NCBI GenBank assembly: GCA_023264015.1
Contig: JALQTJ010000001.1
Span: 103,832-167,831 of the forward strand
DNA length: 64,000 nt
Direction: 5' to 3'
Origin: Flavobacteriaceae bacterium
Lineage (GTDB): Bacteria; Bacteroidota; Bacteroidia; Flavobacteriales; Flavobacteriaceae
Shown here: positions 36,548 through 39,862 of the stretch, piece by piece
Layout: every line of letters begins with the position of its first letter
How positions within the stretch are numbered: position 1 is the stretch's first letter
Made by a program: the position numbers and the translations under genes
Notes under the pieces: model-generated
Seen by the model: only the letters and a program-made list of their open reading frames with translations
The model's database searches: none
Told to the model about the DNA's origin: nothing

Positions 36548-37210
36548 ATGCTTCTCAAAGCATCTCACATCTTTAAAACGAAACAGCATGTTGATATTTT
36601 AAATGATGTTAGTTTAGCACTCAATGCTTCTGAAATAGTAGCAATTACGGGACCTTCAGGCGCAGGTAAAACCACGCTATTGAATATTTTAGGAACCCTA
36701 GAGCAACCCGATAAACACCCCAACACCTCATTAGAATTCGATGGCCGTTCACTGCTAGCTTTGAACGAGCAGCAATTGGCTGAAGTACGCAATCAATCCA
36801 TTGGCTTTATTTTTCAACATCATGGGCTCTTAGAAGAATTTACTGCACTAGAAAATATTTGTCTTCCGGGGCTTATCATGAAAACGCCTCAAAAGAGGGT
36901 TCAAGAGTATGCCCATGAACTCTTAGACACTTTAGGACTATCACATCGATCCAATCACAAACCACAGGCGCTATCTGGCGGAGAAAAACAACGTATTGCA
37001 GTGGCACGGGCTTTAATCAATCATCCAAAGTTGGTACTTGCGGATGAACCTAGCGGAAACCTTGATAGTCCGAATGCACTGCAGTTACACGAACTCTTTC
37101 ACCAGCTTGTAGATCAATTAAAATGTTCTTTTTTAGTGGTTACTCACAACCAAGAAATTGCTCAAAAATCAGATCGGATACTAGTATTGCGCGATGGGAA
37201 AATGGAATAG
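36548..37210 (+). CDS. ABC transporter ATP-binding protein, LolD/MacB-like
   Basis: A 220-residue ATPase with Walker A GPSGAGKT (35-42), signature LSGGEKQRIAVARAL and Walker B LVLADEPSGNLD, closest in pattern to LolD-type lipoprotein-release ATPases. No permease gene lies beside it, so it is an orphan subunit and its partner must be encoded elsewhere. It overlaps the following DUF2400 gene by 17 bases, an unusually long co-directional overlap. A TATCTTTC sequence upstream could be a weak -7 box. Confidence 0.9.
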   Translation: MLLKASHIFKTKQHVDILNDVSLALNASEIVAITGPSGAGKTTLLNILGTLEQPDKHPNTSLEFDGRSLLALNEQQLAEVRNQSIGFIFQHHGLLEEFTALENICLPGLIMKTPQKRVQEYAHELLDTLGLSHRSNHKPQALSGGEKQRIAVARALINHPKLVLADEPSGNLDSPNALQLHELFHQLVDQLKCSFLVVTHNQEIAQKSDRILVLRDGKME

Positions 37211-37970
37211 CACTGATCTCAAAATTTATCTCGATGAAAAGGCTGAACAGTATGAAAAGCCTGGATTTCTTGAAACAGACCCTTTGGGTATACTTCATGA
37301 ACTTGATCATCCTTCTGATCAAGAAATTTTAGGTCTTTTAGTCGCAACCATCGCATGGGGAAACCGTGCGTCTATTATTAAAAGTGGATGTGATTTGCTC
37401 AAACGCTTAGATCATCAACCCTATACTTTTATTGTAAACGCCACTGAATTGGAGCTCAAACAAATGAGTAAAGGTTTTGTACATCGGACATTTAATGAAA
37501 ATGACCTTTTTTTCTTTTTAAGTAGTCTTAAGTGCGCATATACCCAATCCTCAAGTTTAGAATCATTTTTCATCTCTCCAGAGTCCCGATTGGATCAAGG
37601 AATTATCAATCTAAGGACCTTTTTACTCCAGACCCCTCATGAGACCCGCACCCGAAAACATCTTGCAGATCCAGAAAAGTCTAGCGCATCAAAACGGCTC
37701 CATCTCTTTTTAAGGTGGATGGTTAGAGGCGCAGAAAAAGGTGTTGATCTAGGAATTTGGAAACAGGTTAAGACTTCTCAATTGTCTTGCCCACTTGACG
37801 TTCACTCAGGTCGTATCGCTCGATCTTTGGGCCTTTTAACCCGAAAGCAGAACGATTTGAAGGCATTAATCGAATTGGATACTAAGCTCAGAGCCTTCGA
37901 TTCTAATGATCCGGTTAAATACGATTTCGCCCTTTTTGGGATTGGTGCCTTTGAATTTGTAGATTTGTAG
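37194..37970 (+). CDS. TIGR02757/DUF2400 family protein
   Basis: A 258-residue soluble protein of a conserved family (TIGR02757, DUF2400) with no established function. Visible landmarks are QEILGLLVATIAWGNRASII (43-62), SKRLHLFLRWMVRG (166-179), CPLDVHSGRIARSLGLL (199-215) and YDFALFGIGAFE (243-254). The first and third resemble the helix-hairpin region and PVDTH motif of HhH-GPD DNA glycosylases such as the Nth encoded in this same window, which suggests a distant relation. It overlaps the ABC gene by 17 bases and is followed 16 bases later by the dihydroorotase-like gene. Confidence 0.85.
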   Translation: MGKWNSTDLKIYLDEKAEQYEKPGFLETDPLGILHELDHPSDQEILGLLVATIAWGNRASIIKSGCDLLKRLDHQPYTFIVNATELELKQMSKGFVHRTFNENDLFFFLSSLKCAYTQSSSLESFFISPESRLDQGIINLRTFLLQTPHETRTRKHLADPEKSSASKRLHLFLRWMVRGAEKGVDLGIWKQVKTSQLSCPLDVHSGRIARSLGLLTRKQNDLKALIELDTKLRAFDSNDPVKYDFALFGIGAFEFVDL

Positions 37971-37986
37971 GATTTATTTTGATTCT

Positions 37987-39225
37987 GTGAATAAGCTTCT
38001 TCAATCTGTAACGCTGCATGAACCCTCACATTCTTTACATCAAACAGTTGTTGATATTCGGATTGTTGATGGAAAGATCAAACAGATCGCAAAGAAAATC
38101 AAACCGCTTTCCTCTGATTCAATAGAAGACCTAAAGGGCCTTCACGTTTCTTATGGGTGGTTTGATCCTGAGGTAAACTTCAGTGAACCAGGATACGAGT
38201 CCAAAGGGCGCTTCGTAGACGATTTAAATAGTGCAGCCCATTGCGGATATACTGCTTTGGGAATTATGCCTGATACCCTTCCCCATCCGAATAACGGAAG
38301 TGCATTAGCTTTTTACAATGGTTTTAGTGCTCATCCCGTTAACGTCCACCCCTTTGGGACTTTAACACATGATGCAAAGGGAGTCGATCTTTCTGAATTA
38401 TATGATTTACAAAAGGCAGGTGCCCTCGGATTCTATGACTACAAAAGACCACTAGTAGAATCTAACCTTCTTAAACTTGCACTTCAATACAGCAAAGGAT
38501 TCGACGGAAAAATAATGGTTTATCCTCAAGACGCTTCAATGAGTAAAGGCGGACAATTAAGAGAAAGTCCATTAAACCTTACACTCGGGCTTAAGTCTAT
38601 TCCTGATTTGAGTGAATACTTGGCGGTGCAAATGTGCATTGAGTTATTGCGCTATACCAATGCTAAGCTTCATTTGACAGGAATTTCGACAGCAAGTGCG
38701 CTTACTCTAATTAAGAAAGCAAAAAAGGAGGGTCTCAATCTCAGCTGCAGTACGACCATAGGGTTATTGTATTTTGATGAAAAAGAGCTTCAGGCCTTTG
38801 ATCCTAGATACAAGCTTGCGCCTGCGCTAACAGACCAAAAAACGCGAAAGGCACTCAAAGACGCACTTTCTAGTGGGGTGATTGACTATGTAACTTCTGA
38901 TCATAATAATGTGTCGGTTGAAGAAAAAGATGTTGAGTTTTCTGATGCTGTTTTTGGTAGCAGAAGTTTAAACGCACTGTTTCCGGCCTTATGTGATCTC
39001 TTTGGGCTAGAAAAGGCCATCGAACTAATGAAAAGACCCTATGCAACCTATGGTTTAGGAAGGGCAGAAATCAAAGAAGACACTAGGGCACAACTCTCGC
39101 TTTTCAAAATCCAAAAACACCGCATTCAAGAGCGTGAAAATCAGACCCACCTCTTTAATAATCAAGAGTTTACTCATAAAGGTGTCGGAGTATTTTCTAA
39201 AGGTCAATTCATGGTTTCCCTTTAG
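37987..39225 (+). CDS. Dihydroorotase-like amidohydrolase lacking metal ligands
   Basis: A 412-residue amidohydrolase-fold protein matching flavobacterial proteins annotated as dihydroorotase, which closes the ring of carbamoyl aspartate in pyrimidine synthesis. The metal site is degraded: the D-x-H-x-H-x-x-E-P-G motif reads FDPEVNFSEPG, the usual HAED-like His position reads VYPQD, and the HVST position reads TGIST. Only SDHNN keeps an Asp-His. It therefore may be a non-catalytic partner of aspartate transcarbamoylase, as known for other pseudo-dihydroorotases, or may use a different mechanism. Sequence is otherwise intact, so it is not a pseudogene. Confidence 0.82.
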   Translation: MNKLLQSVTLHEPSHSLHQTVVDIRIVDGKIKQIAKKIKPLSSDSIEDLKGLHVSYGWFDPEVNFSEPGYESKGRFVDDLNSAAHCGYTALGIMPDTLPHPNNGSALAFYNGFSAHPVNVHPFGTLTHDAKGVDLSELYDLQKAGALGFYDYKRPLVESNLLKLALQYSKGFDGKIMVYPQDASMSKGGQLRESPLNLTLGLKSIPDLSEYLAVQMCIELLRYTNAKLHLTGISTASALTLIKKAKKEGLNLSCSTTIGLLYFDEKELQAFDPRYKLAPALTDQKTRKALKDALSSGVIDYVTSDHNNVSVEEKDVEFSDAVFGSRSLNALFPALCDLFGLEKAIELMKRPYATYGLGRAEIKEDTRAQLSLFKIQKHRIQERENQTHLFNNQEFTHKGVGVFSKGQFMVSL

Positions 39226-39229
39226 TATC

Positions 39230-39862
39230 ATGATGGACCTAAGCTTTCTCTATCAAGCACCTGAACAAGAAAGCCATAAAGCTATCTTCTTGATTCACGG
39301 CTACGGAAGTTCTGACAAAGACTTGTTTCAATTTGCTCCTCACCTCCCTAAGGATTATCATATTTTCTCGCTCAGAGGTCCTTATACATTAGGATACGAG
39401 CAGTTTGCATGGTATGCCATCCATTTTGATGAAAATCAGAAAAAATTTAACGATCTAGATCAAGCTAGGAGTTCCTTAAATGCAATAAAAGCGTTCATCG
39501 ATACCGAGAAAGAAAAATTAAAACTCCATCACATCGACCTCATGGGTTTTAGTCAAGGATGCATTTTGAGTCTAGCCTTAGCCCTAAACCATCCTGGATG
39601 CTTTAACCGCGTAGCAGGACTCAGCGGTTATCTCAATCTTGAAATGCTTGAGCATGCTGAAGCTATTGAAAAGCAAACCACAGCATTCTTTTTATCTCAC
39701 GGTCTAGAGGATGCTGTCATTCCGTTTACATGGGCCCAAGAGACACGAGATTTATTACTTAAGCACGACTTAAATGTAGCATGGCATGAATACCCTACCG
39801 GTCATACCGTCTCTTACGACAACTTCAAAGATCTAATTACCTTCTTGAGCGTTCAGGTCTAA
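39230..39862 (+). CDS. Alpha/beta hydrolase, carboxylesterase type
   Basis: A 210-residue esterase of the phospholipase/carboxylesterase family. The catalytic triad is S108 (GFSQG), D161 (GLEDAVIP) and H192 (TGHTVS), and the oxyanion-hole region is FLIHGYGSSDKD (20-31). The natural substrate is unknown. The start at 39230 is preferred; an open frame 32 codons longer would lie wholly within the preceding dihydroorotase-like gene. Its last 30 bases overlap the convergent small coiled-coil gene. Confidence 0.88.
   Translation: MMDLSFLYQAPEQESHKAIFLIHGYGSSDKDLFQFAPHLPKDYHIFSLRGPYTLGYEQFAWYAIHFDENQKKFNDLDQARSSLNAIKAFIDTEKEKLKLHHIDLMGFSQGCILSLALALNHPGCFNRVAGLSGYLNLEMLEHAEAIEKQTTAFFLSHGLEDAVIPFTWAQETRDLLLKHDLNVAWHEYPTGHTVSYDNFKDLITFLSVQV

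Follow-up and report, generated by a model that had tools for sequence, protein, structure and literature searches.

Dihydroorotases (DHOs) that have lost their activity are already known to serve as subunits of aspartate transcarbamoylase (ATCase). In Pseudomonas, the gene of such a pseudo-dihydroorotase (pDHO) usually lies beside pyrB. The pDHO of P. aeruginosa is inactive, yet it is required for the trimerization of PyrB and for ATCase activity, the assembly being known as a class A2 ATCase (PMC7053772). In the class A1 complex of Aquifex aeolicus (3d6n), three DHO dimers hold two ATCase trimers (PMC7053772), and the DHO, which keeps His61, His63 and Asp153, is zinc-bound and active in the complex (PMC3880350). 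His180 and His232 of the same enzyme are dispensable, alanine replacements costing little activity, and its loop A becomes ordered upon ATCase binding (PMC3880350). A dead DHO is also a structural part of the ATCase-containing assembly in fungal CAD-like proteins such as yeast URA2, where it is a domain fused in one polypeptide (PMC4581275), whereas the Bacteroidia protein described here is free-standing. PRK09236-type DHOs belong to the same superfamily, and for their representative from Porphyromonas gingivalis (2gwn) two bound zincs are listed (PMC12524618). In the open-licence literature, to which our search was confined, these Pseudomonas, Aquifex and fungal precedents were found and nothing on Bacteroidia; an earlier description is possible.

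A Dihydroorotase Homolog without the HxH Zinc Ligands

The window analyzed here is a stretch of 64,000 nucleotides from the genome of a Flavobacteriaceae bacterium, below called the host genome. At positions 37987–39225 of its forward strand, to which all features below belong, it encodes a protein of 412 amino acids with a GTG start codon; in the relatives, the start codon lies at the identical point and is either GTG or ATG. The protein has the sequence and the fold of a type-I DHO (PyrC). It aligns over its length with the DHOs of A. aeolicus and B. anthracis, and its monomer model (pLDDT 89.7) superposes on type-I DHOs with TM scores of 0.88–0.90, the best matches including 3d6n, the A. 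aeolicus enzyme that ATCase activates (TM 0.88), while the structural match to 2gwn has just 21% identity. A Pfam search with the window protein gave no match, and the protein falls below every curated NCBIfam dihydroorotase cut-off (at best 217 bits against 456). It scores 182 bits against TIGR00857 (cut-off 279) and 95 bits against NF006688, the model of PRK09236-type DHOs (cut-off 535), and is thus not of the PRK09236 type. The pDHO genes score solely against dihydroorotase models, and annotation pipelines will probably label them active dihydroorotases. When named genomes were scanned with this single protein, just two close relatives were obtained, both from uncultured MAGs, including Flavobacteriaceae bacterium JM.27. 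Among close orthologs the dN/dS ratio is 0.056–0.091 and, as judged from the sequences, the product is a protein maintained by selection and not a pseudogene.

Alignment to the A. aeolicus DHO locates the changes. In the degenerate DxHxH motif DPEVNFSEPG (approx. 38158–38187), the HVH of the A. aeolicus enzyme, which represents the HxH alpha-zinc ligands of active type-I DHOs, is replaced by EVN (H61 to E and H63 to N), and R65 is replaced by serine. Tyrosine occupies the position of His180 in VYPQD (approx. 38518–38532), glycine that of His232 in LTGIST (approx. 38674–38691) and valine that of the later AxH histidine. Both Asp153 (D151 here, in GFYDYK, of which FYDYK lies at approx. 38431–38445) and the pair Asp305-His306 (in TSDHNN, with SDHNN at approx. 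38896–38910) have been kept. The first-pass annotation had singled out PEVNF, VYPQD, TGIST and SDHNN, and all four motifs were read correctly; it had also held that only SDHNN was left of the metal site, which is right for SDHNN and wrong in that the alpha-site aspartate D153 is kept too. Because the A. aeolicus enzyme can do without His180 and His232 (PMC3880350), the absence of HxH is the telling loss against zinc binding.

The loop formed by residues 181–210 (38527–38616), which follows the lost His180, is where confidence in the monomer model is lowest. Its residues E193, G201 and E210 are invariant or nearly so, and the loop overlaps loop A of the A. aeolicus DHO. By this circumstantial analogy, it is a candidate partner-contact loop.

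Loss of the Site across the Class Bacteroidia

An intact site was absent from 30 of 30 aligned sequences representing the genus, the family and the order, and the alignment of flavobacterial relatives that had been suggested as a check revealed losses shared by every ortholog in the genus and the family. Sampling of relatives across the phylum (n = 107) yielded 23 fully intact and 84 degenerate sequences, and 22 of the 23 intact ones come from outside the class Bacteroidia. Neither chance nor sequencing error explains the loss, because it is common to every ortholog of the genus and family as well as to the 84 degenerate relatives. For the same reason the earlier suggestion of a lineage-specific variant had the scale wrong, the loss being common to nearly the whole class. 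Pseudo-dihydroorotase matches with one in-frame stop were encountered in five genomes (G415, G353, G339, G383, and G320), for which a sequencing error, a stop located at the match edge and recent decay of the gene are all conceivable.

The residues found at the ligand positions differ from one another among the 84 degenerate sequences, and the columns of the histidine ligands are among the more variable ones (66th–96th entropy percentile). Conserved positions include many glycines and prolines of the fold, alongside Asp153 (77/84), Asp305 (67/84), and His306 (84/84). In a tree that came from a short search and contains several long branches, two changes between the intact and degenerate states suffice, the f26 lineage apart. 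In many other families of the same phylum, an intact PyrC directly adjoins pyrB (L090, L091, L093, L097, L098, L100, L101, L104, and L106; also L116). Family f26 (L117 and L124), in which a degenerate pDHO is still directly beside pyrB, is a second lineage with such a protein; it is basal, lies outside Bacteroidia, and its loss was apparently independent.

Considering that the losses are class-wide, that the replacing residues differ and that nearly all intact relatives are found outside Bacteroidia, pDHO is best seen as a decayed ancestral active PyrC. Descent from an intact PyrC of its own phylum also implies a loss in Bacteroidia independent of that in Pseudomonas.

A Second Dihydroorotase in the Host Genome

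If the genome had no other DHO, the first-pass annotation reasoned, the window protein would have to work by an unknown chemistry, and a search for a second enzyme was advised. That search found a PRK09236-type DHO, split by a contig gap into two pieces at contig ends. The N-terminal 199 amino acids at the end of contig C89 contain CIDNQVHFREPG, VKLFLGSSTGNMLVD, and AHCED, and the C-terminal 166 amino acids at the end of C104 contain ATDHAPH. From the complementary matches and the positions at contig ends, we infer that the two fragments are parts of one gene. The protein has the loop LGSSTGNMLVD of 2gwn. DHOs of this type retain a lysine, two histidines and an aspartate as ligands, and the presumed active Bacteroidia enzymes (L011:1423–2019 (+), L010:1447–1947 (-), L048, and L179–L206) show QxH where other DHOs have HxH, although 2gwn is listed with two zincs. 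With this second DHO in the genome no unknown chemistry is required. As in class A2 ATCases, a separate and putatively active DHO thus accompanies the pDHO.

Of 217 Bacteroidia genomes, 213 have a DHO of the PRK09236 family, the host genome among them, and this occurrence bears on whether pDHO might itself be an unorthodox active dihydroorotase or amidohydrolase, working through Asp153, Asp305-His306 and other ligands. The retention of these three residues in most degenerate members and the dispensability of His180 and His232 in A. aeolicus would fit such an enzyme. We nevertheless regard it as very improbable, for the HxH motif, R65 and the substrate-side AxH histidine have been lost in a manner that varies by lineage, the variable histidine-ligand columns hold no common replacement ligand set, and nearly all genomes have the other DHO.

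Gene Neighborhood

Upstream of pDHO in the window lie a conserved neighbor encoding a LolD-like ABC transporter ATPase (36548–37210) and, directly adjacent, a TIGR02757-family gene (37194–37970); a gene for an esterase-like alpha/beta-hydrolase (39230–39862), a neighbor conserved in the family, follows downstream. The order in relatives is LolD-TIGR02757-BatA-pDHO. The gene for the BatA-domain membrane protein has been lost in the window, where the TIGR02757 gene abuts pDHO (37970–37987) at the place at which relatives such as L066 have BatA. Conservation of the BatA-pDHO order extends across Bacteroidia (L049–L088), and TIGR02757 often lies upstream of the pair.

With 4 kb taken on either side of 40 pDHO loci sampled across the class, 31 had a BatA-cluster gene, in most cases immediately upstream of pDHO and on the same strand. 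This frequent association might suggest that pDHO and the BatA-domain protein share an envelope function unrelated to pyrimidines, which the distribution of the two genes makes highly unlikely. BatA was not found anywhere in the host genome or in six genus-mates, all of which keep pDHO. Conversely, four genomes, namely G109, G203 and the PyrI-containing G386 and G407, keep BatA together with the genes downstream of it but have no pDHO in between; G354, G312, and G341 also have BatA and no pDHO. On account of this double dissociation, the BatA-domain protein was rejected as a functional partner of pDHO.

Co-Occurrence with PyrB Type and PyrI

Among the same 217 Bacteroidia genomes, 190 carry the native PyrB of the class, with 64–76% identity to the PyrB of the host genome where measured, and all but three of the 190, hence 187, also have pDHO. 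In two of these exceptions (G458 and G465), the gene usually found in front of pDHO runs to the contig end, so that the sequence stops right at the expected start of pDHO; in the third (G463), native PyrB is present and pDHO was not found. Degenerate pDHO occurs in none of the 21 genomes with a non-native PyrB: in 10 of them an E. coli-type PyrB is accompanied by PyrI, seven belong to family f89 and one to f5, and the others are G330, G354, and G109. All 10 PyrI genomes are accordingly without pDHO. The PyrB of the f89 genomes and of G330 has approximately 49% identity, for which replacement and strong divergence are both possible. Fisher's test gives 4e-26 for PyrB type against pDHO and 4e-10 for PyrI, values that treat the genomes as independent when there are about six distinct replacement events.

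Single genera repeat the pattern. In g162, the PyrB of G354 is of E. coli type and the 313 bases between BatA and the contig end contain no pDHO, whereas its mates (e.g., G397 and G416) retain both native PyrB and pDHO. In g50, G203 lacks PyrB and pDHO alike, and in G109 the degenerate pDHO is absent and an intact PyrC adjoins PyrB instead. G312 and G341 have neither PyrB nor either of the DHOs.

Several further genomes deserve mention. The sole PyrB of G354 is a divergent E. coli-type protein without PyrI, and G397 has two PyrBs, one native and one of E. coli type, the latter without detected PyrI (L129, L130, and L154). Contamination was considered for G354, a worry lessened by the gene after its PyrB, which is 75% identical to a genus-mate gene. 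Well-covered genomes without detectable PyrB (G312, G341, G203, G025, and G032) are likely to represent pyrimidine auxotrophs or assembly gaps. In G298, where PyrB was not detected, a very diverged pDHO relative (L128) adjoins a BatA-like gene, perhaps under relaxed constraint.

The association with native PyrB could mainly reflect shared ancestry, pDHO being kept for some other moonlighting role, for example by interacting with CarAB or with the active DHO. Such a role would agree with the small number of lineages, about six, in which non-native PyrB occurs, so that phylogeny inflates the statistics, and with a mirror-tree comparison in which the rate covariation of pDHO with PyrB, relative to the PRK09236-type DHO, did not exceed expectation (partial r 0.23, p 0.08; one control row is perhaps the wrong paralog). 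We consider it improbable nonetheless. Within g162, G354 departs from its mates in PyrB type and pDHO alike, and within g50 the two were either both missing or exchanged for a linked intact pyrB-pyrC pair; the PRK09236-type DHO is present with or without pDHO and does not explain why pDHO is retained.

The type of PyrB alone is not decisive, because the score of native PyrB is the same, 204 bits, against A. aeolicus ATCase (3d6n_B), which forms a complex with DHO, as against B. subtilis ATCase, which is a free trimer.

Proposed Origin and Role of the Bacteroidia pDHO

With the moonlighting role set aside, dependence of PyrB on pDHO is the reading we favor: it is quite probable that pDHO is a dead descendant of the phylum's ancestral type-I PyrC, retained because native PyrB needs it. 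Judged from gene content, its role today is most probably that of a PyrB partner without catalytic activity, with the second DHO doing the chemistry. The scaffold for ATCase proposed in the first-pass annotation is well supported, if indirectly, by the co-occurrence with one PyrB lineage, the mutual exclusion with PyrI and the descent from a pyrB-linked active PyrC.

In the sequence of events that we propose, the catalytic step would have passed to the other DHO, of the PRK09236 family, in the ancestor of Bacteroidia. The old PyrC would then have shed its zinc ligands, differently in each sub-lineage, and would have been retained by the need of native PyrB for it. Most likely, pDHO would act as its counterparts in class A1 and A2 ATCases do, its dimers bridging or stabilizing PyrB trimers into a larger holoenzyme. 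Tuning or regulation of PyrB by pDHO, in the place that PyrI has in E. coli-type ATCase, may be a further function. It is by analogy with the described complexes that we infer physical binding of pDHO to PyrB, its stoichiometry and any regulatory role. A bolder version, which we hold to be rather unlikely, is that the decayed PyrC is an obligate PyrI-like ATCase subunit across Bacteroidia, its emptied barrel pocket, no longer engaged in catalysis, now serving as an effector site, specific to the lineage, through which pyrimidine synthesis is regulated.

The system resembles the Pseudomonas class A2 ATCase in having a DHO homolog with a destroyed metal site, in the occurrence of PyrB without PyrI (the host PyrB is encoded on contig C109) and in the non-catalytic partnership with PyrB that is proposed here (PMC7053772). 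It differs from it in that pDHO is unlinked from pyrB in most genomes, among them the host genome (C109 vs. C60), in that the decay differs by sub-lineage and in that the complex is deduced here from genes. In the open-licence literature, no description was found of the class-wide occurrence, the apparently independent origin, the unlinked gene or the exchange with PyrI or other PyrB types.

Pathway reconstructions may count the dead pDHO as an enzyme. If the proposed role is true, most Bacteroidia would rely on a class A2-like ATCase of independent origin for the committed step of their pyrimidine synthesis, and the class would provide natural experiments on the exchange of one ATCase partner for another.
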